NCBI GenBank assembly: GCA_029777945.1
Contig: JAKORG010000036.1
Location: forward strand, 1-64,000
Length of the DNA: 64,000 bases
Source: Deltaproteobacteria bacterium
Lineage (GTDB): Bacteria; Desulfobacterota; Syntrophorhabdia; Syntrophorhabdales; Syntrophorhabdaceae
Direction of reading: 5' to 3'
The notes under the pieces were generated by a model. It was given only the letters and a program-made list of their open reading frames with translations. It was not told the origin of the DNA and did no database searches. Shown here in pieces: positions 3,341 to 22,977 of the stretch. Both the position numbers and the translations under genes were made by a program. Position 1 is the stretch's first letter. Every line of letters starts with the position of its first letter.

Positions 3341-3793
3341 TTAAGGTTTTTTTATTGTTTTCTTGATTATACTTGAGATACTTGGTTTTTGTTGGGTAAG
3401 CATATGCTTCATTGCCCCAACAAACATTTCAGGTGTTACACCTGGTGCATGGCCATGCGTGCCTTCTATAAAATCTATGTCAGGAAAGGTATTTTTAAGC
3501 ATATTTAGATACCTTTCCTTAAAAGGACATAATAGGGTAACACAGGTAGCAAGATGAATTGCGTTTAGTCCTATCTCAGTGAGAGATTTTATCCTTCCAA
3601 GAAGTTTTTCAGGTGCATGGGCAGTTGGACAACCTGCACAGTTTATAATACCTGCTATTACTGGTTTGTCATCTAAATCTTTATACCGTGCGAATGCACC
3701 AGCCCTTTCATTAAAATCCTGAAAACAAAGATAAGATGAGCAACCTAACTCCTGTGTTGTATTAGAACAAGTTAAAATACCTATTTTTGTCAT
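3341..3793 (-). CDS. CGGC-domain, predicted metal-binding protein
   Basis: A 150-residue protein resembling the CGGC-domain family (PF08821), small cytoplasmic proteins thought to bind metal through conserved cysteines; no enzymatic role is established. Cysteines are at 9, 18 and 23, then C52 and C55 in INCAGCP (the CGGC position, here CAGC), and C84 and C89 in LATCVTLLCP. The fold looks Rossmann-like at the N-terminus (KIGILTCS). The ATG follows AAGGGGGGATAAC, a strong ribosome-binding site. It is a single-gene unit with its own likely promoter, next to the metal-oxyanion regulator, but a functional link is only conjecture. Confidence 0.7.
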   Translation of the reverse strand: MTKIGILTCSNTTQELGCSSYLCFQDFNERAGAFARYKDLDDKPVIAGIINCAGCPTAHAPEKLLGRIKSLTEIGLNAIHLATCVTLLCPFKERYLNMLKNTFPDIDFIEGTHGHAPGVTPEMFVGAMKHMLTQQKPSISSIIKKTIKKP

Positions 3794-3938: not shown

Positions 3939-4811
3939 TCACTCTTTAAGATAAACAACATTTCCTGTTTTGGTAATATTATATCCTGTTAAGTCCTTTA
4001 CGTGCTTCACAAGGGAAGGTGGCTCAAAAAATGAAAGAAAGGCTCTTACATGACTGCTATAGTAATGCTCTTTTGTAACTACAAATTCAAATCTCTCGTT
4101 CCAGAGCGGTATGAAGTCGAGATCAAGTATATATGCAATATGCTGTATACCAAAGGCAGCGTCAGCAGTATCCTTTAAAACCTCTATGCCTGCATGTAGA
4201 TGGGATTCTACCTCAATAGCATATCCATTAATTGATGTCGAATTTATACCAGCCTCGTTGAGAAGAAAATCAAACAGTAGCCTTGTCCCAGAGCCGAAAT
4301 TTCTGTTTACAAAACGCGCACCCTTAATGGCAATATCCTTGATAGAATTAATACCGCAAGGATTACCTTTTTTTGTATAGATGCCTTGAGTCCTCTCAAA
4401 GAGGGAAATCACCACATAATCATCCCTGTTGAGATATTTATCGAGATAGGAGAGGGTGTAATCTTTTTTTTCTAAATCCAGAATATGAACGCAGGATATG
4501 GTTGCTCTGTTCTCTTTCAGGGCTTTCAGTCCATTTATGCTTCCAATGGGCGCATAATAGGCAATGACATTACCACTTTTGTTATAGATATCTATGATCC
4601 TTCTCAGGAGGACGTCGTCACTTCCTGCAATGTAGATATTTTTTTCCCGTTCTGTATTTTCGAGTATCCATTTATTGACAATTTCTCTTGTAAAGGCGAT
4701 CTTCCCTCCTATTTTTATATGGGGGATCTTCGATTCCTGAACCAGTTTATAGATTTTTTTCTCATTAATCTTGAGATACTTGGAAAGTTCTTTTGTATAA
4801 ATTATTTCCAT
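3939..4811 (-). CDS. HTH plus periplasmic-binding-like regulator of oxyanion uptake
   Basis: A 290-residue predicted transcription factor. Residues 1-50 form an excisionase/MerR-like winged helix (LSKYLKINEKKIYKLVQ, then a wing ending in VNKWI). Residues about 60-285 form a cytoplasmic binding-protein-like domain of the PBP_like type (PF12727), with the ligand-loop motif RNFGSGTRLLFDFLL around 170-184. Proteins of this architecture are commonly placed next to molybdate/tungstate transporters. Here it diverges from the receptor-TonB-Tup locus, so I infer that it senses the transported oxyanion and controls that operon. It lacks a signal peptide. No ribosome-binding site precedes the ATG, and its promoter sits almost on the start codon, suggesting a leaderless transcript. 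Confidence 0.78.
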   Translation of the reverse strand: MEIIYTKELSKYLKINEKKIYKLVQESKIPHIKIGGKIAFTREIVNKWILENTEREKNIYIAGSDDVLLRRIIDIYNKSGNVIAYYAPIGSINGLKALKENRATISCVHILDLEKKDYTLSYLDKYLNRDDYVVISLFERTQGIYTKKGNPCGINSIKDIAIKGARFVNRNFGSGTRLLFDFLLNEAGINSTSINGYAIEVESHLHAGIEVLKDTADAAFGIQHIAYILDLDFIPLWNERFEFVVTKEHYYSSHVRAFLSFFEPPSLVKHVKDLTGYNITKTGNVVYLKE

Positions 4812-4819
4812 TAAAGTTA

Positions 4820-4848
4820 AGTATATAAAAAAATTTGTTTTTTTTCAA
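4820..4848 (-). promoter_or_regulatory. Promoter of the HTH-PBP regulator (leaderless)
   Basis: On the minus strand TTGAAA (4843-4848), a 17-base spacer and TATACT (4820-4825) form a good sigma70-type promoter. The -10 box ends only 8 bases before the ATG at 4811, so transcription would start within a few bases of the start codon. Confidence 0.6.
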
Positions 4849-4912
4849 TTAAGAATATAGGTAATAAATGGTTTAATTTGGTTAAAATAAGTTATTATTT
4901 TATATTTTTTTC

Positions 4913-4941
4913 TTGACTTGATTTTCAAAATAGCTTATTAA
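4913..4941 (+). promoter_or_regulatory. Promoter of the receptor-TonB-Tup locus
   Basis: TTGACT (4913-4918), a 17-base spacer and TATTAA (4936-4941) precede the receptor gene, whose AGGAGG ribosome-binding site is at about 4961. The region between this and the divergent regulator promoter is very AT-rich and contains TTTAA-N5-TTAAA (about 4871-4885), a candidate but unproven operator. Confidence 0.55.
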
Positions 4942-4973
4942 TTTTTTCACATACTCTTTTTAGGAGGGATTTT

Positions 4974-7070
4974 ATGAAAAAAGAAAGGATTACAATTTTA
5001 TTTTTAATAATATTTTTCTCTTTTTTTTCTTTAGACAGCCTTTATGGAGAGGAGAAAATAAAGGAAAAAAAGGATTACGATGTATTTACACTGGGAGAGA
5101 TATATGTAACTGGTGAAAAGCTTCCAGCATCAAAGGAGGTCACGCAGACAACAGAGATAAGAGCCGAAGAAATAGAGGCATCAAACAGTAAAACAGTTTC
5201 CGAGGCCCTTACTTTTGTTGATGGTATAAGGGTCTCGACAGGCCGAAAGAATGAACCGAATGTCCAGATACATGGTTTTGATCAGAGCAGGACTTTGATC
5301 TTAATAGACGGTGTCCCTTACTACGAAACCAATTACGGTAAGCTGGATTTAAATGTCATACCTGTAGATAACATTGCCAAGATAGAGGTTGAAAAGGGAG
5401 TTTCATCGGTATTGTATGGACCGAACGGTATGGCAGGTGTGATAAATATTGTTACAAAAAAGCCTACTGATAAACCATCCATAGATGCCCTTATAGAGAC
5501 AGGGGACTATAGATCAAACAAGTTTTCAATCTCTCATGGCATGAAGATAAGGAAGTTCAGCTACTGGCTAAACTACAGCCATCAAGAATCAAGGGGATGG
5601 TATATGTCACGGGATTTTGACCCAAAGCAAGGCCAGATTGCTTACAAAAATCCCACTTTAAACGTAACAAGGATACTTGAAGATGGTGGTGTAAGAGATA
5701 ACTCTGCCACAAGAACAAACAGCATTTGGGCAAAAGTTGGTGTTGAACCATCCACAGATTCAGAATATTATATTAACTTCCATTACATAGAAAGATACAA
5801 AGAATCACCTTCACCACTTGGATCCATACTTACAAATTCAGTTTTTAGGGCGAGGCCTATGTTTTTGCAGTTTGCCCAGATGCCAAGATACGACAATTGG
5901 GGTGTGGACTTAAGCGGCCAGCAAAAGATAGGTGATCGAGTAAAGGTAAAGGCAAAACTTTTTTACCATTATCATGTGGATGACTACGTTTCATACTATG
6001 ATGAAACCTACACGAGACCTATTGCAATAAGTCGCTACGAAGACAACACCCTCGGGGGCTCATTCCTCACAGATTTCAAGCTTGTAGAGATTGATACGCT
6101 AAAATTTTCCTTCCATTACAGACGGGATTCCCACAAAGAAAGGGATGATGACTACTTGCCCTTCGACGAATCTGTTTCCTATACGGGTTCATTAGGTCTT
6201 GAAAACGAACTTAATATGAGCAAGCATTTTTCCATTGTAGCAGGCCTTGGATACGATTGGTTCAAAGTTGCCAGTTCAGAAAATTCCAATCTAGACAAAT
6301 CCGGTAATCTCATAAACCAGACAAGACTTAGAACCCCTGGTTATGACAGCAAACTTAATCCTATGGTTGGCGCGACCTATACCTTTACAGATGGAACAAA
6401 AATATTTGGTTCATTAGCAAGAAAAATACGTTTTCCCACTTTACAGCAACTTTATTCTTCAAAAGGGGGGAATATAGACCTTACCGCTGAGAAGAGCTGG
6501 AATTATGTATTCGGTATTTCACGGGAACTCACAAAATACGCACGGGGCGAATTTTCAGTCTTCTGCCATGATATTAGCGACTTCATTACCCGAGATGTTC
6601 CAACGATAGAGGGTAAATATATGAATGTTGGCAAGATAAGGATGATAGGCTTTGAATTGTCAGGTGAGGTGAATCCAACAAAAGCCTTAAGCTTCAAAGC
6701 AGGATATACCTATAACAATGCAACCGATAGAAGTCCAGGCCGTGTAACAAACAGGGTTTTGAATGTTCCGGAACATAAGATAGACATTACTATGAAATAT
6801 CTTGTTCCTGTTGTAAATGCAAGACTTGATATAACAGGGCTTTATATGGGTCAGGCATGGGGGCAGCTGCCTACATCGTCGAGTCCCACAACCTCGGCCG
6901 AAAAGATAAATGACCATTTGATATTTAATACCAGAATCGCAAAGACCTTATGGAAAAATGTAGAGGCTTACTTTGCCATAAATAACATCCTTGATAGAAA
7001 TTATGAGTCAGAGCTCGATTTCCCCGCTCCAGGCAGGAATATGTTTCTGGGGATTAGGGCAAGTTACTGA
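4974..7070 (+). CDS. TonB-dependent outer-membrane receptor
   Basis: A 698-residue gated outer-membrane transporter. A signal peptide (about 1-25) is followed by a TonB-box-like LGEIYVTGE region near residue 41. The plug domain (about 60-160) contains GFDQSRTLILIDGVP and the end motif INIVTKKP. A 22-strand-type barrel with alternating aromatic pattern follows and ends in GIRASY, with a C-terminal aromatic residue as needed for outer-membrane insertion. Length is normal. It heads a run with a dedicated TonB/ExbB/ExbD and a Tup-type ABC transporter, so its cargo is probably the same metal oxyanion or a complex of it. This cargo assignment is inferred from neighbours; siderophore- or corrinoid-type ligands remain possible. 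Confidence 0.93.
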   Translation: MKKERITILFLIIFFSFFSLDSLYGEEKIKEKKDYDVFTLGEIYVTGEKLPASKEVTQTTEIRAEEIEASNSKTVSEALTFVDGIRVSTGRKNEPNVQIHGFDQSRTLILIDGVPYYETNYGKLDLNVIPVDNIAKIEVEKGVSSVLYGPNGMAGVINIVTKKPTDKPSIDALIETGDYRSNKFSISHGMKIRKFSYWLNYSHQESRGWYMSRDFDPKQGQIAYKNPTLNVTRILEDGGVRDNSATRTNSIWAKVGVEPSTDSEYYINFHYIERYKESPSPLGSILTNSVFRARPMFLQFAQMPRYDNWGVDLSGQQKIGDRVKVKAKLFYHYHVDDYVSYYDETYTRPIAISRYEDNTLGGSFLTDFKLVEIDTLKFSFHYRRDSHKERDDDYLPFDESVSYTGSLGLENELNMSKHFSIVAGLGYDWFKVASSENSNLDKSGNLINQTRLRTPGYDSKLNPMVGATYTFTDGTKIFGSLARKIRFPTLQQLYSSKGGNIDLTAEKSWNYVFGISRELTKYARGEFSVFCHDISDFITRDVPTIEGKYMNVGKIRMIGFELSGEVNPTKALSFKAGYTYNNATDRSPGRVTNRVLNVPEHKIDITMKYLVPVVNARLDITGLYMGQAWGQLPTSSSPTTSAEKINDHLIFNTRIAKTLWKNVEAYFAINNILDRNYESELDFPAPGRNMFLGIRASY

Positions 7071-7123: not shown

Positions 7124-8875
7124 ATGAGAAAAGGATTGCTTTTTGTATTGTTACACCTTTTTGTAATAATAGGAGTGCTCGGAGGAGTATCTTCTTCAAT
7201 GGCGTTAACTATAGGCGGCTCAGTAAGGCAGCCCCTTAATCTCACAATAAATGACCTTTTGAGATTCGAGTCTGTAGAGGCAAGGATTACTGAGGTTACA
7301 GCTGACAATAGTTATAGAGGTGTCTTTATCTACCGCGGGGTTCCACTTAAAACCCTTCTTAATTTTGCTTTCATACAGAAGGAAGAAGAGGGATTTTCTA
7401 AACCTATAGATCTTGCTGTTGTAGTGCGCAACAGAGAAGGAAAGGCAGTCACACTTTCATGGGGTGAGATCTTCTACAGGAATCCTCAGGAAGTAATGAT
7501 AGCATTTTCTGCTACACCTGTAATTCCACACCATAATAACTGTGGTGATTGCCACACATTGGACTTTTATAAGCCAGTAATGGACCAACTGAAGCGGAAG
7601 GTAGGATTTCCAAAACTCGTAATAACGAAGGACTTCTTTACAGACCGCTGTCTGGAAGAAGTGATTCATATCGAAGTAGTGAATCTCAAACAAAAAGCAG
7701 AAAAGAAGAAAATGGATAAACTTTTTTCGCCAAAGTTCACTATCGCTGGCATGAATAATAAATCCTTTGAGATCAACGATTTATCCGGCTACCGTCACTT
7801 TGAGGTATCTATCAAGCAGGTGGGTGATGGGAGGGGCTACCATGGTTTAAAGCGTTTTTCTGGTGTCTCTTTAATAGAACTTCTTAAAAAGGTGGGCGTT
7901 AAACAGGAGATAGACTCTGCAATACTTGTTTCATCCATTGATGGATACAGAACACTCCTTTCATACGGTGAGCTTTTTATGGCACCCGATGGAGAACGAG
8001 TTATGATAGCTGACAAAATTGGAACTGAGCCCCTTAAAGAGAATGGAAAATTTGCCCTGGTGATACCTGATGATATATCAGCAGACAGGATGGTGAAGGC
8101 TGTATCAAAAATAGAGGTAATCTCTTTCAAAACTATACCAAAGGTTTACATAATAGGCATGGGCTGCGCTGATACGAGCCTTATTACGCTTGAGGCAATC
8201 TCATATATGGGGAAGGCAGATGTTTTTGTTGCCCCAGAAGATATTGTAAAAAGATTTTCAAAATATATGGGTGACAAGCCTGTTCTCTTCGACCCTTTAC
8301 GAAATGCAGAACATATGTTCAAAAAGAATAATCCAAATCTCTCAGAAGAAGAACTTAAAAGCAAACTGGAAGCACAGCGCGCAGCTGACCTAAAGAAGAT
8401 AAAAGATGCCTTTAATGAGGGGAAAAGTATAGCGCTTCTGGAATATGGCGATCCTACTATATATGGAGCCTGGCAGTACTGGCTCGAGGAACATTTCAGG
8501 GGGCATATAGAGATTGTGCCTGGTATAAGCGCCTTCAATGCTGCAAACGCAATGATAGGAAAACATCTCGGCTGCAAAGGCTCAATCATACTCACAGTAC
8601 CAAAGGGGCTTACAAAAAACGAAGAAATGCTGAAGGCTATTGCTACCAATGGTGACACTATAGCCATCTTCATAGGACTTATGGAATTAAAAAACCTTGT
8701 TGCTCTTCTTGAGAAATATTATTCACAAACAACGCCGGTTTATGTAGCATACAGGGCAGGTTATTCTGAGAGCAAGCATCTTTTGAAGACCACACTCGGT
8801 GAAGTTATTTCTGCTACAGAGAAAGAAAAGGAAAGGCATCTTGGCATGATCTACATAGGTCCCTGTCTGAAATAG
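7124..8875 (+). CDS. Exported fusion: two molybdopterin-binding-like domains plus tetrapyrrole methylase domain
   Basis: A 583-residue protein with an unusual architecture. Residues 1-28 look like a cleavable signal peptide ending SSSMA. Two domains related to the oxidoreductase molybdopterin-binding fold (PF00174) follow, at about 29-187 and 203-335, each with the small-family signature (YRGVPLKTLLN and FSGVSLIELLKK). Domain 1 contains CGDCH (C140, C143, H144), which has the form of a c-type haem-binding motif. Residues about 340-583 form a tetrapyrrole (corrin/porphin) methylase domain with VYIIGMG, YGDPTIYG and VPGISAFNAANAM. The usual GxGPGD loop reads GMGCAD. An S-adenosylmethionine enzyme behind a signal peptide is puzzling, because SAM is not expected in the periplasm. 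The gene follows the receptor by 53 bases and precedes the permease by 11. The function is unknown; a role in binding or modifying the imported ligand is a guess. Confidence 0.8.
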   Translation: MRKGLLFVLLHLFVIIGVLGGVSSSMALTIGGSVRQPLNLTINDLLRFESVEARITEVTADNSYRGVFIYRGVPLKTLLNFAFIQKEEEGFSKPIDLAVVVRNREGKAVTLSWGEIFYRNPQEVMIAFSATPVIPHHNNCGDCHTLDFYKPVMDQLKRKVGFPKLVITKDFFTDRCLEEVIHIEVVNLKQKAEKKKMDKLFSPKFTIAGMNNKSFEINDLSGYRHFEVSIKQVGDGRGYHGLKRFSGVSLIELLKKVGVKQEIDSAILVSSIDGYRTLLSYGELFMAPDGERVMIADKIGTEPLKENGKFALVIPDDISADRMVKAVSKIEVISFKTIPKVYIIGMGCADTSLITLEAISYMGKADVFVAPEDIVKRFSKYMGDKPVLFDPLRNAEHMFKKNNPNLSEEELKSKLEAQRAADLKKIKDAFNEGKSIALLEYGDPTIYGAWQYWLEEHFRGHIEIVPGISAFNAANAMIGKHLGCKGSIILTVPKGLTKNEEMLKAIATNGDTIAIFIGLMELKNLVALLEKYYSQTTPVYVAYRAGYSESKHLLKTTLGEVISATEKEKERHLGMIYIGPCLK

Positions 8876-8886
8876 GATGAGATAGC

Positions 8887-10209
8887 ATGCCCCTCAAAAG
8901 AACCCTTAACCTTTTTGATGCAATCTTGCTCGTTGTGGGCAATGTGGTTGGTGCAGGTATATTCACAACATCCGGTTTGCTTGCAAAAGAGCTGGAGTCC
9001 CCCATTCTCTTTATCGGCATTTGGATGATCGGCGGAGCCCTTACGCTCTGTGGGGCACTTACCTATGCAGAGATGTCGGGTATGTTTCCCCGTTCAGGGG
9101 GTGATTATTTATTTTTGAAAGCTGCCTATGGACCTTGGGCAGGTTTTCTTCTCGGATGGGTTTCTTTCTGGATAATAAATCCTGGCTCCATAGCAGTGCT
9201 TTCAATTGCAGTTGTAAAATACATCAAGGGTTTTATTGATTTTACAGATTTATTCAATGAAAAGATAGCAGCCCTCGGTGTTATCCTCTTTTTTACTTTA
9301 CTCAATTACCGCGGTATTCGGTTGAGTGCAAAGATACAAAATTTGTGTGCACTGGGGAGTATAGCCTTTATACTAATCATGATTGCAGGTGGACTTGCAT
9401 CTGAGAAGGGTAACTGGGAGAACTTCAACAATAATGAACTGGAGTCCATCTCTTTCTTTAAGCTTTTTGGTTCATCTATGATAGCAGTGATATTTTCCTA
9501 CAGTGGATGGTTCGTCACTGCATACATCGGAGATGAAGTAAAAAGACCTGAACGTAATCTTCCCTTATCCCTCTTTATAGGCACCATGATAGTAATGATT
9601 TTATACACACTTCTCAATATTGTTTATCTCTATGCCATGCCCATCAGCAGTCTCAAAGGGGTCATAAATGTAGGACAGCTTGTGGGAGAAAGACTTTTTA
9701 ATTCATATTTTGCTCGAGTTGTAAGTGGGGTAATCATTCTTGCCATTGCAGCAAGCATCAATGCCACGATTCTTGCCGGTGCCCGTATTCCATATGCTAT
9801 GGCTGAGGATAGACTCATTTGGATGCCGCTTAAAAAGGTCCATCCAATATATGGAACACCTCATATAGGGCTTCTTTTTCAGATGGGACTTGCATATCTT
9901 TTTATCATTTTTGAGACCTTTGAGCGTCTTTTGAGCTATGTTGTTTTTATCATGCTCCTTTCATCCATTGGTTCAGGGCTTGCGCACTTTGTGCTACGAA
10001 GACGGTCTCCTTTTCTTCCAAGATCTTACAAAACATGGGGATATCCTTTTGTCCCTCTCATTTTTGTCTTGTCGTATATGTGGATTGCGGGCCAAATTGT
10101 CTTCTCAAACCCAGGAACATCCCTTTTAGGCATAGCAATTGCCCTTTCAGGTATACCATTTTATTTTTATGCAGTTGGTAGAAAAAATAATGCTGAACTT
10201 ACTAAATGA
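8887..10209 (+). CDS. APC-superfamily amino acid permease
   Basis: A 440-residue, 12-helix secondary transporter of the amino acid-polyamine-organocation superfamily, closest in appearance to LAT/y+LAT-type exchangers. The helix-1 signature VGNVVGAGIFTTSGLLAKE and the FPRSGGDYLFLKAAYG segment are characteristic. It lies 11 bases after the fusion-protein gene and overlaps tonB, so it is co-transcribed with an uptake system for something that is probably not an amino acid. It might bring in the same ligand released in the periplasm, or an amino acid used as a chelator. The true substrate is unknown. Confidence 0.88.
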   Translation: MPLKRTLNLFDAILLVVGNVVGAGIFTTSGLLAKELESPILFIGIWMIGGALTLCGALTYAEMSGMFPRSGGDYLFLKAAYGPWAGFLLGWVSFWIINPGSIAVLSIAVVKYIKGFIDFTDLFNEKIAALGVILFFTLLNYRGIRLSAKIQNLCALGSIAFILIMIAGGLASEKGNWENFNNNELESISFFKLFGSSMIAVIFSYSGWFVTAYIGDEVKRPERNLPLSLFIGTMIVMILYTLLNIVYLYAMPISSLKGVINVGQLVGERLFNSYFARVVSGVIILAIAASINATILAGARIPYAMAEDRLIWMPLKKVHPIYGTPHIGLLFQMGLAYLFIIFETFERLLSYVVFIMLLSSIGSGLAHFVLRRRSPFLPRSYKTWGYPFVPLIFVLSYMWIAGQIVFSNPGTSLLGIAIALSGIPFYFYAVGRKNNAELTK

Positions 10210-10996
10210 ACATACATGGAAAAAGTATTTATTCATTTCTATGCTTATCCATATTGCTGTAGTCTTAGTTCCCGTATCTACGAATAATCAGGCAAAAAAT
10301 GATAGAACAATCGAGGTCTTATTGATTTCAAATAGCCCATTATCTGTATCCTTAAACAAAAAGATAGATCAGGCAGCAAGTTCCATAAAAAAATCTTTCC
10401 ACAGAATACAGGGCGTAGGTGAGTCTGGGGGCTTTAAAAGAAAAGAGGAGATAAATGATTTTTCTGCAAAGCCTTCAGATATTGAAGGAAAGGCAAATTC
10501 TTCAATAAGTACAACTTCACTGGATGAACGTTTTGTGTTAAGAGATGGTTCTCAGGGATATGGTGGAAACGGTATTGCGGTACAAACCGGTATAAGTGAA
10601 AAGGCCGGATATGGCACAGGCATTAAAGGGACAGGTGGAGGCACAGGTGCAGGTAGTGGTATTGGAACAGGTGCAGCTGGTAGTGGAACTGGAAACGGTT
10701 CAGGCATTGTTGATGCAAAATTCAATACACCTGATGGGCCTAAGTTCCAATATCGTGAGATTCCAGAATACCCCTTTATGGCAAGAAAATTGGGGAAAGA
10801 AGGGGTTGTCGTTCTCATGGTCATAATAGATGAGAAAGGCAAATTGGTAGAGGTTAAAGTAATAGAGGCATCGGATCAGATATTTGCCGATGCTGCTATC
10901 GAAGCAGTGAAAAGGTCAAAATTTTTTCCTGCGAGGTGGAAAGGAATACCTGTGCCTTCAAGGGCAATTCTGCCGATAAGGTTTTCCCTCAGATAA
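10190..10996 (+). CDS. tonB: TonB energy transducer
   Basis: A 268-residue TonB-family protein linking the inner-membrane proton channel to the outer-membrane receptor. One N-terminal membrane helix (about 14-30, YLFISMLIHIAVVLVPV) carries the His typical of the TonB anchor. The C-terminal domain (about 185-268) has the PEYPFMARKLGKEGVVVL and AAIEAVKRSKFFPARWKG motifs. The spacer is Gly/Thr/Ser-rich (about 115-180) instead of the usual Pro-rich segment. I choose ATG 10190, which overlaps the permease gene by 20 bases; ATG 10169 in frame is the alternative. Neither has a strong ribosome-binding site, suggesting translational coupling. Confidence 0.9.
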   Translation: MLNLLNEHTWKKYLFISMLIHIAVVLVPVSTNNQAKNDRTIEVLLISNSPLSVSLNKKIDQAASSIKKSFHRIQGVGESGGFKRKEEINDFSAKPSDIEGKANSSISTTSLDERFVLRDGSQGYGGNGIAVQTGISEKAGYGTGIKGTGGGTGAGSGIGTGAAGSGTGNGSGIVDAKFNTPDGPKFQYREIPEYPFMARKLGKEGVVVLMVIIDEKGKLVEVKVIEASDQIFADAAIEAVKRSKFFPARWKGIPVPSRAILPIRFSLR

Positions 10997-11048: not shown

Positions 11049-11642
11049 ATGATCGACATAATTATAAAAGGTGGATGGATGATGGTGCCTCTGGCAATCT
11101 GTTCGATCATATCAGTGACAATCATTTTTGAACGATTCATGTTTTTCAAACGCATGGGAGTAGCCCATCAAGCTGAGGAGGTGCTCGCATTCATCGGTAA
11201 GGGGCAGGTTGAAAAGGCCATTACCTTAGCTAATGGTTCTTCACTCCCTATTATGAGAGTTTTATCCGCTGGTCTTAACAATCCTTTCAACCCCGGAAGC
11301 TCAATGGTTGCAGCAGCAACTACCGAGATACAGACTATGAAAAGGGGGCTTACAACCCTCGATACAATTATCACCCTGGCACCACTTCTTGGTCTTTTAG
11401 GAACAATAATCGGGATGATACGTTCATTTAAGATAATGGCATTAGCTGGCATCGGTCAACCACATGCAGTTACAGGTGGGGTAGCAGAGGCACTCATTGC
11501 CACAGCTGCTGGCATAACAATTGCTATAATTACATTGATTCCTTATAACTATTTTCTTGCACGAATTGAACGAGAGACGGAAGTGATTGAAACATTTGCA
11601 ACCCGCCTTGAAATGGCATTAAGGGGTGTGTTTAAGGAGTAA
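11049..11642 (+). CDS. exbB: ExbB/TolQ-type proton channel
   Basis: A 197-residue MotA/TolQ/ExbB-family inner-membrane channel subunit that uses proton flow to energise TonB. Three membrane helices are visible: about 8-28, 110-130 (LAPLLGLLGTIIGMI) and 142-165 (EALIATAAGITIAI). The two C-terminal ones form the conserved family core. The ATG follows AAAGGGGAACACG. It lies 52 bases after tonB and 5 bases before exbD. TolQ is the alternative name, but the tonB and receptor neighbours favour ExbB. Confidence 0.92.
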   Translation: MIDIIIKGGWMMVPLAICSIISVTIIFERFMFFKRMGVAHQAEEVLAFIGKGQVEKAITLANGSSLPIMRVLSAGLNNPFNPGSSMVAAATTEIQTMKRGLTTLDTIITLAPLLGLLGTIIGMIRSFKIMALAGIGQPHAVTGGVAEALIATAAGITIAIITLIPYNYFLARIERETEVIETFATRLEMALRGVFKE

Positions 11643-11647
11643 CCTCG

Positions 11648-12067
11648 ATGAAAATACCGAAAAAAACGAGAAAAAAAGCTCGTATCGAGATTATACCCAT
11701 GATTGATACCATGTTCTTTCTTCTTGTATTCTTCATGATTGCGACCCTTTCGATGACAATCCAGCGTGGATTAAATGTAAATCTTCCTTATGCTGCCACA
11801 GCCCATGACGATTTTCAAAAGTTGATCACTTTGACCATAACAAAAGATAGGAGGCTTTTCTTTGAGAAGGAGGAGGTTTATTCATTAACTGAAGTAGAAA
11901 AAAGGCTTTCAGCACAAGGAAAGAGGGCTCATGGGCTTTCAATAGTGATAAATGCCGATAAAAATGTAGAACACGGACGGGTAATCGAAGTGATGGACAT
12001 TGTAAGAAAGAGTGGTATTACAAAGATAGCAGTAGCCACCAGACCTAAAGAGTTTTTTGTAAAATGA
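11648..12067 (+). CDS. exbD: ExbD/TolR-type proton channel subunit
   Basis: A 139-residue partner of ExbB with one N-terminal membrane helix and a periplasmic domain. The conserved proton-carrying Asp is D20 in IEIIPMIDTMFFLLVFF. The periplasmic part has the family's VVINADKNVEHGRVIEVMD region. It closes the tonB-exbB-exbD group and is followed by a 148-base gap with a promoter for the ABC transporter genes. Confidence 0.92.
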   Translation: MKIPKKTRKKARIEIIPMIDTMFFLLVFFMIATLSMTIQRGLNVNLPYAATAHDDFQKLITLTITKDRRLFFEKEEVYSLTEVEKRLSAQGKRAHGLSIVINADKNVEHGRVIEVMDIVRKSGITKIAVATRPKEFFVK

Positions 12068-12215: not shown

Positions 12216-13091
12216 ATGGTGAATAAAAATATGAACAAATGGCTTTATATTGCCTTTTTTTTCATTTTTTTATCCTTGCTACCCATTTCTGGTCTTGCTG
12301 ACTCACAAAATTTTATTCTTATGGCGAGTACAATTGGCCCTATAGATTCAGGGATTGTTGATGTGCTGGAAGAAGCCTTTGAAAATGAAACAGGCATAAG
12401 GGTTCGTCATATAGGGGCAGGAACTGGGGCAGCCCTCGATATAGCCCGAAAAGGAAATGTGGATCTTGTAATGGTTCATGCAAAATCCCTTGAAGAGAAG
12501 TTTGTGAAGGAAGGGTATGGAGTAGAAAGAATTGACCTTATGTATAACGACTTTGTAATTGTTGGTCCACCTGATGATCCTGCAGGTATTAAAGGGATGA
12601 AGGATGTAGGTGAGGCACTGAGGAAGATATCCAACAAGGATGTTTCCTTCATAAGCAGGGGGGATAAATCTGGCACTCATGTGGTGGAGATGGCATTATG
12701 GGAAAAGGCTGGCGTAAAACCATCAGGGACCTGGTACATCATTTATGAAAAGGGCTCACTGGGAAATGTTGCTACCCTTCGTTATACAGATCAAATGAAA
12801 GCGTATACAGTCATAGATAGAGCTACATTTCTTGCCCTACAGAAGGAAATTAAACTTGTTATCCTTGTGGAGGGAGATGAGGCAATGCTGAATTATATCA
12901 GTCTCATCCCAGTTAATCCGAAAAAATTTAGTAAAGTGAATTATAACGATACAATGGCCTTTGTAAATTGGTTAACAGACCCTCAAAAAGGTCAGCTCAT
13001 TATAAAAGAGTTTGGGAGAGATAGATATGGCAGCCCGTTATTTTTCCCTAATTCGCAAAAGTGGAGAAGTTTAAAGGGTGATAGTAATTAA
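12216..13091 (+). CDS. TupA-like oxyanion-binding protein, divergent paralog
   Basis: A 291-residue exported solute-binding protein of the TupA (tungstate) family with a signal peptide of about 29 residues. It keeps the ligand-site motif SRGDKSGTH and the typical end YGSPLFFPNSQKW. The N-terminal anion loop differs from the family norm: where TupA proteins have TTTSTxxSG, this one has STIGPIDSG (38-46). The next gene is a canonical paralog, so this copy may bind another oxyanion, bind with altered affinity, or pass ligand between receptor and transporter. The start at ATG 12216 follows GAGGTG at 5-base spacing. It is first in tupAA'BC. Confidence 0.85.
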   Translation: MVNKNMNKWLYIAFFFIFLSLLPISGLADSQNFILMASTIGPIDSGIVDVLEEAFENETGIRVRHIGAGTGAALDIARKGNVDLVMVHAKSLEEKFVKEGYGVERIDLMYNDFVIVGPPDDPAGIKGMKDVGEALRKISNKDVSFISRGDKSGTHVVEMALWEKAGVKPSGTWYIIYEKGSLGNVATLRYTDQMKAYTVIDRATFLALQKEIKLVILVEGDEAMLNYISLIPVNPKKFSKVNYNDTMAFVNWLTDPQKGQLIIKEFGRDRYGSPLFFPNSQKWRSLKGDSN

Positions 13092-13113
13092 AACTGTAAA
13101 GGGAGAAATGGTC

Positions 13114-13971
13114 ATGAAAAGAGTAAACACCATACTAACAATATCCATAGCATTGATTGTTCTATTTTCAGTTATTATTCCATTACCGTCTTTTGCACAA
13201 CAGAAAAATGTGATACTTGCCACCACAACAAGCACCCAGGATTCGGGGCTACTTGATGTCCTCATCCCGATTTTTGAAAAAAAGACAGGTTATTTTGTAA
13301 AGACTATTGCAGTAGGCACAGGACAGGCCCTTGCCATGGGTAGAAAAGGAGAGGCAGATGTGCTTTTGGTCCATGCCCCAGAAGAAGAGGAAAAATTCGT
13401 CGCAGAAGGGTATGGTATAAGAAGAAGGCTTGTTATGCACAATGATTTTGTTATAGTAGGCCCTAAATCTGATCCTGCTAAAATAAAAGGCACTAAATCA
13501 GCAGTTCAGGCATTTAAAAGAATTGCAGAGACAAAGAGCCTTTTCATCTCAAGAGGTGATAATTCAGGGACACACGCAAAAGAGAAGACAATCTGGAAGG
13601 CTACAGGTATAAAGTGCGAAGGAGAAAAATGGTATCAGGAGACTGGTCTTGGCATGGGTCAGACCCTAAATGTTGCCTCTGAAAAAAAGGCATATACATT
13701 AACAGATAGGGGAACATATCTTGCCCTTAAAAAAAGACTTGACCTTGATATACTATCAGAGGGAGATAGATTACTTTTTAACATCTACCATGTAATTGAA
13801 GTAAATCCTGAAAGGTTTCCTAAGGTAAATAGTCAAGGGGCACAGGCGTTCTCTGATTTTTTAGTGTCTAAAGAGGCACAGAACATAATAAAAACATTTG
13901 GTATTGAAAAATTTGGCTCGCCTTTATTCTTCCCTGATGCTGAAAAAAAGATTAACCAACAGGTAAGATAA
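13114..13971 (+). CDS. tupA: Tungstate ABC transporter substrate-binding protein
   Basis: A 285-residue periplasmic binding protein of the TupA family with a signal peptide ending in PSFA-QQ. The characteristic anion loop ATTTSTQDSG (36-45) and SRGDNSGTH are intact, as is the closing FGSPLFFPDA. I choose ATG 13114 because AAAGGGAG (13098-13105) sits 8 bases upstream; ATG 13108 is too close to that site. The upstream paralog ends 22 bases earlier and tupB starts 2 bases after this stop. Tungstate is the best guess; molybdate specificity cannot be excluded from sequence alone. Confidence 0.9.
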   Translation: MKRVNTILTISIALIVLFSVIIPLPSFAQQKNVILATTTSTQDSGLLDVLIPIFEKKTGYFVKTIAVGTGQALAMGRKGEADVLLVHAPEEEEKFVAEGYGIRRRLVMHNDFVIVGPKSDPAKIKGTKSAVQAFKRIAETKSLFISRGDNSGTHAKEKTIWKATGIKCEGEKWYQETGLGMGQTLNVASEKKAYTLTDRGTYLALKKRLDLDILSEGDRLLFNIYHVIEVNPERFPKVNSQGAQAFSDFLVSKEAQNIIKTFGIEKFGSPLFFPDAEKKINQQVR

Positions 13972-13973
13972 AC

Positions 13974-14672
13974 ATGGAACTTATAATCGAAGGCATTATA
14001 AAGGCCATTAAGCTTCTTTTTAGCCTTGATAGAGAGGTTATGGATATTACGCTACTCTCTCTTAAAGTCTCTGGTATTGCTACAATCATCAGTGTGTTTA
14101 TAGGGGTATCAATAGGAACACTTATTGCCTTAAATGAATTTCCGGGAAAAAGGATTATTGTGAGCCTTGTAAATACTGCCATGGGACTACCCCCTGTTGT
14201 TGTAGGGTTATTTGTTACAATCTTTCTATGGAGAAACGGACCATTTGGTTTTCTTGGCATTCTCTATACACCTTATGCAATAATAATTGCACAATCGGTG
14301 ATTGCTACCCCTATTGTTATGGGTATCACCATTGCTGCAATGCAGCAGCTTCCTAAAAAATTAAGACTCCAGATCCTTGCCCTCGGTGCAACAAGGCTTC
14401 AGATGGTGTGGCTGCTCATTAAAGAGGCACGTCTTTCCTTGCTGGCAGCTGTCATGGCAGGATTTGGGGGCGTGATTTCTGAGATAGGGGCATCCATCAT
14501 GGTAGGGGGTAACATCAAAGGATATACCCGTGTCCTTACAACTGCCACTGTCATGGAGACAAGTAAAGGCAATTTTGATATTGCCATTTCGCTGAGCATA
14601 ATTCTACTGCTTCTTGCATACTTTATAAACCTGATCCTTACCCACATCCAGCAGAAGGGGCATTGGAGGTAA
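13974..14672 (+). CDS. tupB: Tungstate ABC transporter permease
   Basis: A 232-residue inner-membrane permease with about five helices and the binding-protein-dependent (MetI-type) EAA loop, here ALGATRLQMVWLLIKEA, which docks onto the ATPase. Length and the G-rich AGFGGVISEIGASIMVGG segment are typical of TupB. It is separated from tupA by 2 bases and from tupC by 8, so the three are translated together. Substrate specificity follows the binding proteins. Confidence 0.9.
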   Translation: MELIIEGIIKAIKLLFSLDREVMDITLLSLKVSGIATIISVFIGVSIGTLIALNEFPGKRIIVSLVNTAMGLPPVVVGLFVTIFLWRNGPFGFLGILYTPYAIIIAQSVIATPIVMGITIAAMQQLPKKLRLQILALGATRLQMVWLLIKEARLSLLAAVMAGFGGVISEIGASIMVGGNIKGYTRVLTTATVMETSKGNFDIAISLSIILLLLAYFINLILTHIQQKGHWR

Positions 14673-14680
14673 GATTATAA

Positions 14681-15778
14681 ATGATGTGGGAAAATAATAT
14701 GTCTGTAATTGAAGCAAAAGGCATCTCCCTTAATAGAAAAGGCCATAGGATTTTGAACATTTTTAATTTGAGAATAGATGAGGGAGAGGTTGTTTCCCTT
14801 ATTGGGCCCAATGGGGCAGGTAAAACCTCTCTTCTTATGATATTATCCTGTCTTTTTAGGAATTTTTCAGGGAAAATCCTTTTCAGAGGTTTAGAGGTAG
14901 AAAAAGACATAACCGCCTTTGAATACAGAAGAAAAATCAGCATGGTTTTTCAGGAACCTTTGCTCTTTAACACAACTGTATTTGAAAATGTTGCATCAGG
15001 ACTTAAATTCAGAAGGTTTAATAAAAGGGAGTGTAGAAGAATTGTCTATGAACACTTAGAAAGATTTGGCATCATTCATCTAAGCACACGTTTGGCAAGG
15101 ACACTTTCAGGGGGTGAGGCGCAGAGGGTAAGCCTTGCCAGGGCATTTGCCATAAGACCTCATATCATATTTCTCGATGAGCCCTTTTCTTCCCTGGATA
15201 AACCCACAAAAGATGCACTCATGGAAGACCTCGAGCGTAACATAAGAGATTTAAAAATCACGGCAATCTTTGCCACCCACGACAGGGATGAGGCATTAAG
15301 AATGTCAGAGAGGATTATAGTTTTAAACCAAGGAGAGATAGTTCAAGATGGCTCACCGGAAGAGGTGATGAATCATCCCTGCAATGAATTCGTTGCCTCT
15401 TTTTCAGGCATGGAGACCATAATCTCTGGGACTGTGGTAAAAAACGAAGGGGGCATCATAACTATTTCAGCTTCAGGGGTATATATTGATGCAGTAGGTG
15501 ATGTTGCACCTACCAGAAAGGTAATCCTATGTATTAAACCAGAGGATATTGTCCTTTATCCTGTATCACATAAGTTAAAATCAAGTGCAAGAAATACCTT
15601 TACAGGCACCATAACGAGGGTTGTCCCTTCAGGCTTCTATCAAAAGATTTATCTTAATTGCGGTATCCCCCTTGTTGCATACATAACGAATAGCTCTGCA
15701 AAGGCCCTTGAAATATCAGAGGGTATAAACATCATGGCATCTTTTAAGGCAACATCAGTGCATGTGATAAGGCAATGA
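14681..15778 (+). CDS. tupC: Tungstate ABC transporter ATPase
   Basis: A 365-residue ABC ATPase that powers TupB. It has Walker A GPNGAGKT, the Q-loop VFQEPLLF, the signature LSGGEAQR, Walker B IIFLDEPFSSLD and the switch His in FATHDRDEA. A C-terminal extension (about 245-365) has the two-copy TOBE-like look seen in ModC-type ATPases and may bind anion for feedback control. ATG 14681 follows GGAGGT (14665-14670); ATG 14699 is a possible alternative. A terminator follows the gene. Confidence 0.9.
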   Translation: MMWENNMSVIEAKGISLNRKGHRILNIFNLRIDEGEVVSLIGPNGAGKTSLLMILSCLFRNFSGKILFRGLEVEKDITAFEYRRKISMVFQEPLLFNTTVFENVASGLKFRRFNKRECRRIVYEHLERFGIIHLSTRLARTLSGGEAQRVSLARAFAIRPHIIFLDEPFSSLDKPTKDALMEDLERNIRDLKITAIFATHDRDEALRMSERIIVLNQGEIVQDGSPEEVMNHPCNEFVASFSGMETIISGTVVKNEGGIITISASGVYIDAVGDVAPTRKVILCIKPEDIVLYPVSHKLKSSARNTFTGTITRVVPSGFYQKIYLNCGIPLVAYITNSSAKALEISEGINIMASFKATSVHVIRQ

Positions 15779-16458: not shown

Positions 16459-19400
16459 CTATTTCGCTATGCCTGCTGCAGTACCAGTGAAGGTCCCTCC
16501 TTGTGGATTTATATTTCCCGCTGCTGCACCCTTGAAGGTAAAAGCAGGGTGCTGATTAGATAACGCATTCGCTTGAGCACTTCCATCTGTTATAGTGGCA
16601 AGCCACTTATTAGAGCCTGTATCCCATGTCTTTAAATTAAACTTCGCGCTAACTGTCGCGCTTGTATTGTTAGCGTTAGTAAGAGATACATTAGCATTTA
16701 TTGGATTACCAGAATAGGTGCCACCTACACTGTTTGTTGCCCATATCTTGGGTGCCTCTGAAGGGTTTGTTGTAGATCTGAAAAATTTAACATTGTTCAT
16801 GGATACGTTAATGCTATTATTTCCACTATCTGCCCATGAGCCACTGAGGTTGACACTACCCACCTCAACTGCCGGTATGCCAAGTTGCTGTAGCTTTGCC
16901 TGTCCTTCTGGATTTGATGCTAAAGCAAGGTAGGTATTTGTCTCTATAGCTACGCCAAGCGCCCCTATCTGGAAGGCGCTCAAGAATGGGTCAAAACTTC
17001 CCCTTACATTTCCAACTGAGACCCAGGTAGCTGGTAGTGGTGGATTAAGGTCAGCACCATAACCCCTTGAACTGCCCGTAAGTATATTATCTGTGTTAGT
17101 GCCAACATTTAAATTACCGACTATTCGTGTAGAATCCATGTATTCGAACGATGTAGTCCAGAAGGCACCTGGATCTGAGATTTGGGCTCCAATACCCATA
17201 TTCCATACACCAAAGCTTCTTTGCGTATCATCATAGAGAGACATATAGTGCAATCCATATCTAAATTTTTCTCCTGCAATTAAGGTGTCATTTACTTTTA
17301 AGAATGCAATGCCACCACTACCTGTAGGTAAATCGGTGCGATGTAAATAATAATCAAGGGATGTGTAAGGAATGAGTTTGTCCATCAAAAATACAGGGTA
17401 TATATTACCATCGCCCTGCCACATCCCAATATCATCATATACTGTACCTGTAAAGGTGCCTACCAAAAAGCCTGCCTGTGATTTTGTATCGTCTATGCGT
17501 TTTAGATATATAGCCCTTATTCCACCATCTATCGAGCCGTCTGCCTCAAATCCTGCTATATATCCATTGTATGCACCCTGTCCATCAAGTGTTGTATTGG
17601 TATTGTTCTTAACATTATTGCTTGCAATATCAGTCAAGAAAATAACAGGCTTTTCATACCACTTATCGTATTCACCGAGAAAATATAATGTGGCAGGAGA
17701 ATTGGATGTAGCGCCCCACAAATCTCCCACACCACCCATTATTGCAGAGATGGAGCCTATATCATCGAATCCCCACCCGTCAAATGTATGATTAGGCGCC
17801 TGATATCCTTTGCTTTGTGCAAGGTTGCTGAAGAACTCATGGCTGAAAGTATCAGGATAGTCTGTGCCTGTCTGGTATTCTGAGAATGTGTTATTGGATT
17901 TTTGATACGTATACTCAGACCACATGGGTGTTGAAAAAGGACCTGTATCCGGTTCATACTTTCTCTGAGTTATAGATGTCTTATTGGCATCGCTGAAAAA
18001 GTTTATTGCTCCATATTTTGCCTCGTTGTTGAACCAGTATTGGTATTGATTATAACCAGTCTCACCTCCAGTATAGTAGTTGCCTGAATGCTGCTCTGTA
18101 AAACGCTTTGTCGAGCTATCAAAATGGCTGGCAAACGTAAAATATTGGGTTGTATTCCACACACCGCCCATAACACCCTGCCAGGAATAGGCTGTATAAG
18201 AGACAACAGGAGACGGCTGTTGATAGACACCGAGGATACCTACATCACTGATAGTACCCATCTTTGTCATGGTCATAAACTGACCTACATTTACTGCACT
18301 TTCTGTGCGAGCCTTAATCACACCGCCTGATAAGGTGCCTTGTAGTGTAGGGACAAGCATAAGCCCCAAATCAGGCTGCCATTGGTTATTGGCATTTTTG
18401 AACTCTCCAAAATAGCCTTCAGCTCCAATTCCCGCTATCCATGTATCTGGTAATGTCGTTGATGTTACACCAAAGCCAGAAGCCCATATAGTCGCACCTA
18501 ATATGCCCCAGTCCTGGCCTTTTATGTTGCGTGTTGAACCTGAATTTACAAAAGGCTGACCCAAGAAAGAGCCTGAATCACCTGAAAATTGGCCAAAGAT
18601 ATATGTCATTATAGGTTTCTCGACAATGTTGCTACTGAAATTATCTATTGTCACCCCTTCTGGATTGCTCGAAAAATTACTGTTCATTACCCGTGCAGCG
18701 AGTGTCCCCTCTGCATCCCACATGCCGATGTCTTTATAAAAGTTTCCTGACAGGAGTTGTGATTGCCATAATACCCCGGCTGTTTGATTATCCAGTCCCA
18801 CATAAAGACCGCGCATTGCAAGTTGCACACCCCGTGCATCATCTGCAATAAAGCCTGCTACAGTCACCCCATAGGCACCATTTTTAGTTCCACCTTCAAC
18901 ATAAGGGGTATAGAAAGTGCCGAAAAGCATTGGGGTTGTTAAAATTGTAGGTTTTGTAAAATAACCATAGGCATTATACCTACCTATAATTGAAACAGAT
19001 GCCCCTTGAGCATTCCATGGATAACCTGTCATGCCAGCTATTGCTGAAAGACTATCATTGGGCCTATTTTCGAGCACATCGATAAAAGACAGCCATTTTG
19101 AATACCCATCTGGCATGAAACTCGGGTTATTGGGATCCATCCAGGAAGGCAGTGCACTTATTTCTTCTATGCTCAAAATATCCCAGTGGTTGGCTACATA
19201 GAAGCTTCCATCCTGTTGTTGGATATACATTGTATTATTAGGGAAATAGTTTTTTTCAGTTGAAAACGCATAATCATCTTTTAACTGCCCTATGCCTTTA
19301 GCATCGGTTTTTATATAGCTAAAGTCATATTCATAGTAGCCTTGAGGCATATAGGGAGTACTTATATATTGTGTGAATTCTGCCTCGTAGTATGTCCCTG

Positions 19401-22400
19401 GCAAGGCACGCCAGAGTGAGGTCGGCTGGGAGTAGGATGTGGAGAACCTCAGGCTTGACGTGAGGGGCGTAGCCTGCCATTTTCCGACACCTGCAGCCTG
19501 CCATGTTGCAAGTTCAGTGTCTATTGTGCCGTAGATGTTCCCTGACATGGTCGCCAGGAAATGGGGTGTGAGAACCTTCGTGTTGTTTAACGTGCCTGAG
19601 AAGGTATCTGATGAAGTGGTGGCAGTTGTTGCATGTCCAAGAAAATAACCCCAGTCCAGGTCATAATAGTATTCTCCGCCAAAATCAAACACCTGCGTGC
19701 TTGTTACTGGTGTTGTGTAGGTTCCTCCCATGCCTAAGTTCCATATACCCCAGGTATGGCCTGTAAGCCCAATGGTAGCGCCTTCCAGATGTGAGGTTGG
19801 GATGGTGCCTCCTGATGGAGTGAATCTGCCTGCCACTAGCCCCGATAAATTATTTTGATCAAGGGATGTAAAGAGATTCTCTGGTAAAATATCCGTTGTC
19901 TCAACAAAGGTCCTGGTGAGTGTGCCACTCAACTCCCACATGTCGGGATAAAAATAGTATTTTCCCGTGAGATTGCCGCCTGCATAACCGGCATTTTTAG
20001 AAGGGTCTATGTAGATCACAAGCGCCTCAGTATTGATGGCGCTGTCTTTCCAGAGACCCACATTGTATCCTATGAAGGCGCCGCCGATCGTTGAAGTGCC
20101 TGTCCATATGGTCGGGTCATAGTACAGGTACCAGCCCGAACCATAAGCGAGCCGCGGTTTACCCGAATAGGGCGACAAGGCTTTATCACTGTATGTGCCC
20201 ATCATGTAAAGCTGAGCCGAACCTAATGACCAGAGGTTGCCTATACCGCCTAAAATGCCTGTGACATTGTGCGTGGTGCTTGAAGGATCTGAATTCGCAT
20301 ACACGAGACTTTCATAGTCCGTATTGTAATAGAGGAGTCCGCCTGATACATCCCCGCTGAACGAAAGGGGTGTGCCTGTATAACTTCCAATTGCCTGGCC
20401 TATCCAGGTTCCACTCTCACTATTTACGCCTAAGAATTTTCCTTCCATGTCATAGAGACGAAATGGTGTAATGGCCTTTCCTGTCACATTACCCGTTATC
20501 TCCCCTGTGGCTGTCCAGGTGCCGCTTGCGCTTGCAAGCCAATAACCTTTATTAGATGAATCAAAGTCACCTTCACCTCCTAAGGTTGCACTCCAGGATG
20601 TATCACCTGTTGGTTTTCCAAGATACGTATTGGGAGAGTCGCTATTACCAAGTTTTAAGTCAAAGACTCCAAATGACATGGGTTGAGATTCTGAAACAAG
20701 GAACATAACACTACTGTATCCACTGTCACTACCAAAAATGCTTCCTGAACCACCAAAGCTACCTGTTAATTTTCCATCCATTTGCCCATATGCAAAGAAA
20801 ACACTTAAAGGATCAACGCTTGATGCGAGCTGTGTTGGGGTAAGGATGCCACTTAAACCCCACATAGGGTTTGGAGATATCTCATAGTAGGAGCCAGTGA
20901 ATGTCCCTTTCATGATACCTGTTGTTACCTTTTCTTCTGAATCTGGAGGGCTTATGTAAAGTGCCCTCACTGTTCCATCAGAGATTGTGCCTACAGTCGA
21001 GGCATCTCCACCCTTCCAGATGGCACCTGCAAATCCATAGATATGACCACCATCATTATTTACCTCAGTAGTCCCACCGGAAATATTAGAATTCATTAGA
21101 TAGTGGGATTTATTATATGTGGTATTGAGATTATAGTTGCCTATGGCAATAAAATCTGCTGGACTTGTCCATGGGTCAGTTGTTCCGCCAAAAAGGCCCG
21201 GTTCAAAGCCTGCATATTCCATCACACCATTATTATTATAGTAGAGGGAATCGCCACCAAAGTAGCCGAAGAAATGTGCAGGTGTCCCCTCATACATGCC
21301 TGTCCCTGCCATTCTGAAAGAGGAACTTTCATACTTTCCCAGATACCTCATTGAGTATGTGCCTATATACCACACCTCTGTATCTACATCGTAACGGATA
21401 GATGAAAGAAGTGTATCTATAGTAAACCTTTTGTTTAATGTATCATGGGTGTAAAATAAAGGTCCAAGGGCAAATTCATTATTCGCTATGTATCCCAGAT
21501 AAGGAAGGGATGGTTGGGCTGTATTGTTTAATGTCCCGGTATATATATTGCCTATGGAAGAAGCCTTTTTCCCCTCGTTTGTTATAAGATAAGGGGCTGT
21601 CCGACCAAAATGAATTGATGTTAATTGAATACCTGAATCACTGATAGTTATCGGATTATTGTATGGGAAAAACAGCGGGGTCGTTGCATATTTAATGGCA
21701 TGTTCAAGTGCATCTAAAAGTGTAGGGCTTGGGGTTAGGTTTATGGTGCCAACGGATGAACTTTTCCCTAAAGAACCTGATATGGTAAACCTTGAGCCAT
21801 CGAATGCACCAGGTGCTTCACCTGTAAGAAAATATAGATAACCTCCTTCTACATATAAGGCAGACATACGGGTGAGCCAGGAGCCTTGAATACCTGCCAG
21901 AGGCCCTGAAAATGCACCACCTTTATCTGATGTGCCAAGAAGCCATCCTTCTATAAGACTTGGCACATTATTTGTATTGATTGAGGCGCTCATGGTACCA
22001 GTTCCTGCATCAGGTATATTGGCTGTAAATGGACCTTCTGAAGCAAGAAAAGATGCAGTGCCAGTAAAATTTGTCCCTTTTGGCGCTGGTGGCGCTGGTG
22101 GTATAGGGGGTGGCGGTTCTTTCTCAGCAAATGATGTGGTAACTACAGGTGGCCCCTCCTGTGGAACAGGCTCTTTTTTCGTTTCAGTAGTCGTTGTAGA
22201 GGTTGTTAATACCTCATTCTCAGCAGCCTTTTCCTCAGACTTTACTGTTTGAACCTGGATGAATGCCTCGCCACCACCTTTTATTAAACTCTCCGGTGCC
22301 TTGGTAGGCACAGATGGTGCAGCTTCACCTGAGACAACGGACATATTTCCTGCAGTTATTGGAACAAAGACCTGTGGTAACTGGGGATTATATAGATAGC

Positions 22401-22899: not shown

Positions 22900-22977
22900 A
22901 AAAATCACCTCATCTTTTAAAGAGATTATAGCTTTTTTATCATGTTTTTAAAAAACTTCAATGATATAAATCACCTT

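Follow-up and report, generated by a model that had tools for sequence, protein, structure and literature searches.

The gene at positions 7124–8875 (forward strand) of the window, as we call the whole 64,000-nucleotide stretch of DNA analyzed here, may encode a periplasmic hand-off protein of TonB-dependent tungstate or molybdate acquisition, in which a tetrapyrrole-methylase fold holds an organic ligand rather than methylating it (probability of roughly 0.5). An involvement in molybdenum or tungsten uptake is probable in itself, non-catalytic ligand binding by the methylase fold has about an even chance, and real periplasmic methylation is unlikely. The metal-uptake context is well supported, and it is the ligand and the chemistry that we infer. 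The hand-off reading is based on the content of the operon, four AFOR_N matches in the same genome, and the finding of only siroheme-type and RsmI-like methylases there besides the fusion, as well as on a TupA-like fusion in a related genome (G374), the split of sister loci between those with tungsten- or molybdenum-linked genes and those with DUF4198, and the proximity of TonB-dependent receptors (TBDTs) and APC permeases.

The folds and the type of operon are already known; what appears new is the export of the protein, its architecture, and the way its modules are paired. The architecture had been called unfamiliar in a sequence-only reading of the same DNA, and a search of the open-access literature, with most subscription papers outside its reach, found neither an exported tetrapyrrole methylase nor a TonB-dependent tungstate or molybdate transporter. 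To our knowledge, no TonB-dependent route has been characterized for either tungsten or molybdenum. SAM-requiring enzyme folds normally reside in the cytosol, and the crossing of the outer membrane by tungsten and molybdenum is usually left to porins. In these loci, one SAM-type fold family appears to have been moved outside the cell membrane and reused beside outer-membrane receptors, and the relatives suggest that metal uptake in bacteria recurrently involves the exported methylase fold, a component not described before. If the modular reading developed below is true, it would give tungsten and molybdenum a testable route across the outer membrane and provide a sequence handle on tungsten, molybdenum, and nickel chelators in anaerobes.

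The open reading frame begins with ATG, runs for 583 aa without a frame break, and is preceded by AAAAGGAGAAGG. The N-terminus, MRKGLLFVLLHLFVIIGVLGGVSSSMA, resembles a signal peptide (residues 1–27, positions 7124–7204), with an n-region, an h-region, and a candidate cleavage site after SMA. It is followed by two PF00174/SUOX-like domains with approximate borders at residues 28–187 (positions 7205–7684) and 203–336 (positions 7730–8131); this N-terminal half matches PF00174 in two stretches with 42.1 bits (Pfam cut-off 24), the best stretch in the second domain being residues 229–334. The remainder, residues 340–583 (positions 8141–8872), is a tetrapyrrole-methylase domain with the motifs GMGCAD, GDPTIYG, and VPGIS, of which residues 340–561 match PF00590 (TP_methylase) with 124.3 bits (Pfam cut-off 27.8), which places it in the superfamily. 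The nearest PDB sequences to the fusion protein are CbiF and CobM, but the domain reaches only 90 bits of the 259.65 set for the CbiF/CobM equivalog (TIGR01465) and stays under all NCBIfam cut-offs. The parts listed in the sequence-only reading, namely a signal peptide, two PF00174-like domains, and a tetrapyrrole methylase domain with the GDPTIYG and VPGIS motifs, were recovered from the ORF and the Pfam matches. Absent from that account was a CXXCH motif, found as CGDCH at residues 140–144 (positions 7541–7555) of domain 1, which is a candidate site of c-type haem attachment. Among 28 relatives, CXXCH is kept in 24 and His240 of domain 2 in 27.

The fusion gene is a conserved, real gene. Intact full-length fusions occur in 17 further genomes, and a chance ORF, a frameshift, or an assembly artefact is thereby ruled out; the fusion in G231 is split by a run of N, and that in G153 is cut by the end of the contig. 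The earlier proviso that relatives might reveal a frameshift and two separate genes was thus not borne out. The same architecture is found at 52–63% identity in G031, G039 (two tandem copies), G014, and an uncultured Geobacter sp., with more distant fusions in other families of the same phylum; by their lineage labels, the carriers are Deltaproteobacteria/Thermodesulfobacteriota. Other proteins carry the methylase fold on its own, in two copies, or joined to DUF4198, mostly beside TBDTs. The fold is fused to DUF4198 in G268 and adjoined by DUF4198 in seven more loci, and a single protein of G374 combines the two-domain module with a TupA-like domain. In G058, the gene at L036:8459–10156 encodes an exported protein in which two tetrapyrrole-methylase domains lie in tandem, and genes for DUF4198 and an APC permease come next. 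In a plasmid search, the methylase query returned ordinary cobalamin-type methylases only, and the N-terminal module returned no match.

Judged from the tree, the methylase fold of the exported proteins groups apart from its cytosolic relatives within the sample used, with 40 exported and 35 cytosolic domains on opposite sides of one branch of moderate support (75/84). The 21 fused domains form one group (support 100/99) and 13 stand-alone domains form a second (100/94). In the tree of the two-domain module, the forms without a methylase domain are scattered (7 changes), which, together with the single group of fused methylase domains, points to one fusion event followed by losses of the methylase domain.

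Export of the fusion protein is well supported by its predicted features and those of its relatives. A simple rule-based signal-peptide pattern, which requires an n-region, an h-region, and an SPase-like site, is matched by 36 of 47 related proteins, and most of the remaining 11 have a hydrophobic segment with no site matching the pattern. Positive charges precede the N-terminal helix and none occurs within 12 residues after it, so the body of the protein would lie outside even if the helix were uncleaved. In stand-alone methylase-fold relatives of approximately 290–320 aa, the domain mostly starts at residue 31–35, after a signal-peptide-like segment, and the fusion partners seen in relatives, a TupA-like domain (with the two-domain module) and DUF4198 (with the methylase fold), are both of periplasmic or secreted kinds. 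The original proposal of an exported protein holds up on these N-termini, the charge pattern, the CXXCH motif, and the two kinds of fusion. Its alternative, with the N-terminal helix anchoring a protein that otherwise works in the cytoplasm, would suit a SAM-binding fold that is normally cytosolic and an N-terminus whose cleavage is only predicted, but it is very improbable given the charges ahead of the helix, the SPase-like sites in most relatives, the CXXCH motif, and the relatives fused to TupA-like and DUF4198 domains. It is reasonable to expect that an exported methylase domain would be without a supply of SAM, although, given the amino-acid-type APC permease linked to it, SAM or something similar might cross the membrane. 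The PF00383 deaminase fold appears to be a second normally cytosolic enzyme fold exported in these loci, as exported-looking proteins of this kind lie beside metal receptors (L039:5964–6683, which equals L032:7983–8702, and L033:776–1462), with homologues in L085 and L087.

The fusion gene is part of a run on the forward strand in the order TBDT, fusion, APC permease, TonB, ExbB, ExbD, TupA, TupA, TupB, and TupC. The receptor (4974–7070; PF00593, PF07715) ends 53 bases upstream of the fusion, and the APC-family amino-acid-type permease (8887–10209; PF13520; L-type/2A0306-like, below equivalog cut-offs) starts 11 bases downstream. These are followed by TonB (10187–10996, start codon uncertain; PF03544), ExbB (11049–11642; PF01618), ExbD (11648–12067; PF02472), two TupA-like binding proteins (12216–13091 and 13111–13971), a TupB-like ABC permease (13974–14672; PF00528), and a TupC-like ABC ATPase with a TOBE domain (14681–15778; PF00005, PF03459). 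The gaps along the run, taken from ORF coordinates with later start choices for TonB and the second TupA, are 53 bases, 11 bases, an overlap, and then 52, 5, 148, 19, 2, and 8 bases, and the run is predicted to be likely one transcript. A receptor, TonB, ExbB, and ExbD in a single run are the components of TonB-dependent uptake.

The only family that matches the two TupA-like proteins well is the TupA equivalog NF041772, with 191.6 bits for the first, which has ASTIGPIDSG for TTTSTQDSG, and 264.8 bits for the second, which has TTTSTQDSG, both under the cut-off of 400 bits. With these scores under the NCBIfam cut-off, tungstate is the best guess for the substrate and molybdate the alternative. 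The same tandem pair of TupA-like paralogues is present in the G288 locus (L084). The genome from which the window derives has only four TBDT barrels, and its AFOR_N matches are a mark of tungsten/molybdenum oxidoreductases (tungsten-enzyme type). The end of the run resembles TupABC systems in its TupA-, TupB-, and TupC-like genes, as does the G374 protein in its TupA-like domain, whereas the operon of the window adds a TonB receptor and methylase-fold and SUOX-like components, none of which we know from TupABC systems.

The structure models, built from four sequences, have low to moderate confidence. For the two-domain model (pLDDT 67, pTM 0.63, moderate confidence), the best Foldseek match in the PDB was PruR (TM 0.74 over PruR), followed by SoxCD and sulfite oxidases. 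In a weak alignment (E 0.06) of domain 1 to the bacterial sulfite oxidase 1xdq, no Cys is present at the position of the cysteine that we take to be the Mo ligand, and the matching stretch of domain 2, identified by eye, has none either. A Moco enzyme of the sulfite oxidase family is ruled out by this absence. The likeness to the sulfite oxidase/YedY (MsrP) family is the PF00174 score above the cut-off, and the differences are that the domains of the fusion protein are short and have no Mo-ligating cysteine at the aligned position. PruR is a periplasmic pterin binder that is also without the Mo-ligating cysteine (PMC13259868). The fusion protein likewise has the exported SUOX-type fold without this cysteine, but differs from PruR in having two domains, a CXXCH motif, a metal-uptake context, and no PruR/DcpA pairing. 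That the SUOX-like pair binds pterin as PruR does, with the operon scavenging extracellular tungsten- or molybdenum-pterin from which the metal is recovered, is improbable. In its favor, PruR is the best structural match as well as a pterin binder of this cysteine-less type, and exported deaminase-like proteins lie near some relatives, whereas the two-domain model behind the match is of moderate confidence and no tie connects the methylase fold to pterins.

The exported protein with its CXXCH motif is encoded together with two Cytochrom_C_asm (cytochrome c assembly) proteins in its own genome, the combination expected of a c-type cytochrome, and because of these two proteins covalent attachment of haem to CGDCH is possible. 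CcsA/ResB-like genes are found at 9 of 28 two-domain-module loci versus 0 of 12 methylase-fold-only loci; since three of the nine relatives with such neighbors have no CXXCH, the haem reading is treated as a candidate and not as a result. At four loci (L073, L076, L083, and L089), CcsA-like and ResB-like genes form pairs beside the two-domain module, and CXXCH is missing in three of the four modules, an absence that the haem reading leaves unexplained.

In a shallow AlphaFold2 model (pLDDT 64), the C-terminal part matched CobM/CbiF in Foldseek with a probability of 1.00, the TM-scores being low because the geometry of the model is poor. The comparison of each domain by structure prediction and Foldseek, as suggested beforehand, thus returned the CobM/CbiF fold for the C-terminal part and PruR as nearest to the N-terminal half. 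The SAM/SAH-contact residues of CobM and NirE were used as the reference for the pocket (PMC6478909, PMC4731766), and residues were mapped onto them by our own sequence alignment. Asp443, Ser469, and Ala545 are retained in nearly all of the fused domains, and GDP, PG, and the remaining SAM-contact positions are very conserved, as would be expected for a cleft still binding SAM or something like it. On the other hand, Cys replaces the GPGD Pro in 18/21 fused domains, GDP is preceded by Tyr, Trp, His, or Pro in 21/21, and an acidic residue (Glu or Asp) occupies the NirE Lys102 position in 21/21; the base of all these counts is 20 rather than 21, as the sequence of the window itself was tallied among the cytosolic domains. 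By these kept and changed positions, the methylase cleft is conserved but altered. The Asp of GPGD is lost in about half of the stand-alone forms.

The alterations of the SAM pocket (the Cys, the residue before GDP, and the Lys102 position) argue for a non-catalytic methylase fold that holds a ligand. If the domain were instead a working periplasmic methyltransferase, the APC permease would swap SAM out and SAH in, and the incoming ligand would be methylated, releasing the metal or marking the ligand. Such an enzyme would account for the retained GDP, PG, and several SAM-contact residues, and the permease, which goes with the methylase fold and not with the metal module, is of amino-acid type and similar to L-type exchangers. 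It is nevertheless unlikely, as the pocket has Cys for the GPGD Pro in 18 of the 21, a bulky residue before GDP, and an acidic residue at the NirE Lys102 position, and roughly half of the stand-alone forms are missing the Asp of GPGD. We know of no SAM exporter of such an APC kind.

A PF00590 search of the own genome found, besides the fusion, only two genes of the tetrapyrrole-methylase family, a 535-aa frame that is presumably of the CobA-HemD kind (siroheme-type) and a 228-aa frame that we take to be RsmI, and no corrin-pathway methylases, which rules out a corrin biosynthesis enzyme. With the precorrin-4 C11-methyltransferase CbiF/CobM and the PF00590 superfamily, the protein shares the fold (by profile and Foldseek), GDP, PG, and several SAM contacts; it differs in being exported and fused, in the Cys for Pro in GPGD, and in a genome without a corrin pathway. 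The methylase fold could also be a receptor-side binding domain for corrin, porphyrin, or haem, with the periplasmic CbiK of Desulfovibrio as a comparison case. The fold binds tetrapyrroles in relatives, the receptor is adjacent to the fusion gene, and some loci (G031, G039, and Geobacter) have FecB/FecCD-type ABC genes that are possible haem or B12 systems, yet this role is quite doubtful because the transport genes of the window are TupABC-like, tungsten/molybdenum or nickel partners recur in relatives, and the receptor scores under the B12 and haem receptor cut-offs. The sequence-only reading had supposed a domain binding a corrin, porphyrin, or metal complex delivered by the adjacent receptor; a role tied to the receptor is strongly supported, whereas the corrin or porphyrin gained no specific support from the TupA-like and ABC genes, the lack of corrin-pathway methylases, and the Mo/W or Ni neighbors.

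Sister loci share much of this setting. Much of the gene set of the window recurs at the G229 locus, L069 (TBDT, fusion, APC permease, ExbB, HTH-PBP_like, TupA, TupB, and ABC ATPase), the TupA-like/two-domain-module protein of G374 has a ModE-like HTH, TupA, TupB, and an ATPase as neighbors, and in G221 and G361 the module adjoins an SBP_bac_11 binding protein that we take to be WtpA-like from its HAGSLS motif. Tungsten- or molybdenum-linked genes (TupA, WtpA-like, ModE-like, HTH-PBP, and FmdE/DUF364) occur at 12/28 module loci versus 0/12 methylase-fold-only loci (p 0.007, Fisher, kinship ignored), or at 9/28 module loci with a stricter set (p 0.04, likewise by Fisher with kinship ignored), and are absent nearby in 16 of the 28. 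DUF4198 has the opposite distribution, with 0/28 module loci versus 8/12 methylase-fold-only loci (p 6e-6, Fisher, kinship again ignored). DUF4198 is secreted, binds nickel with a Kd of 18 nM, and is found beside TonB receptors (PMC12537917). Similar to the fusion protein, DUF4198 proteins are exported, have TonB receptors alongside, and are fused or adjacent to the same methylase fold, but they have another fold and a nickel rather than a Mo/W context (PMC12537917).

When the same fusion was sought beside TonB receptors, as had been advised, a TBDT was found within 3 kb on the same strand for 16/21 fusions, and also for 8/12 module-only genes and 14/16 stand-alone methylase-fold genes, although locus counts are not independent of one another. 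Of the 18 scorable fusions, 15 have an APC permease within 5 kb, versus none of the 9 module genes without a methylase domain, the divergent APC genes of L077–L079 having been scored by tblastn and genome search; the permease is also found beside many stand-alone methylase folds. Independent contrasts for this link agree in direction, with two only on well-supported branches. Across the loci, the Mo/W genes accompany the PF00174 module and DUF4198 accompanies the methylase fold where it stands alone; the APC permease accompanies the methylase fold in both.

Under the hand-off reading, the receptor would import tungsten or molybdenum, probably complexed by an organic ligand. The metal part would be received or redox-processed by the SUOX-like/haem half, which would hand the oxyanion to TupA. 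The methylase fold, with its conserved but altered cleft, would hold the organic ligand, predicted to be amino-acid-like, for subsequent import through the linked APC permease. In the sister loci, DUF4198 (nickel) would replace the SUOX-like pair as the metal partner, and the methylase fold, often with the permease, would stay. The methylase fold and APC permease would thus be the shared half and the metal-specific half the exchanged one; as the shared half goes with an amino-acid-type permease, it most simply handles the organic ligand of the incoming metal complex. More broadly, and more tentatively, a widespread undescribed family of periplasmic tetrapyrrole-methylase folds may work with the APC permease as the half of TonB-dependent metal uptake that handles the ligand (or methylates it with supplied SAM), combined with exchangeable metal halves such as the haem-bearing SUOX-like pair for tungsten or molybdenum and DUF4198 for nickel.

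Upstream of the receptor is a divergent regulator with HTH_17 and PBP_like domains (3939–4811, reverse strand; PF12728, PF12727), which has homologues in the G229 and G231 loci. A search for operator palindromes at 4790–5000 gave A+T-rich matches only, none of them convincing, and promoter-like sites are no commoner than in shuffled sequence. Riboswitch control was set aside, with no Rfam match within positions 1–24000 of the window. Beside the regulator lies a gene for a CGGC-domain protein (3341–3793, reverse strand; PF08821) that is possibly metal-binding, and downstream of the operon a repetitive, exported-looking protein of 2149 aa with an N-terminus that is FecR-like by eye is encoded on the reverse strand (16459–22908).
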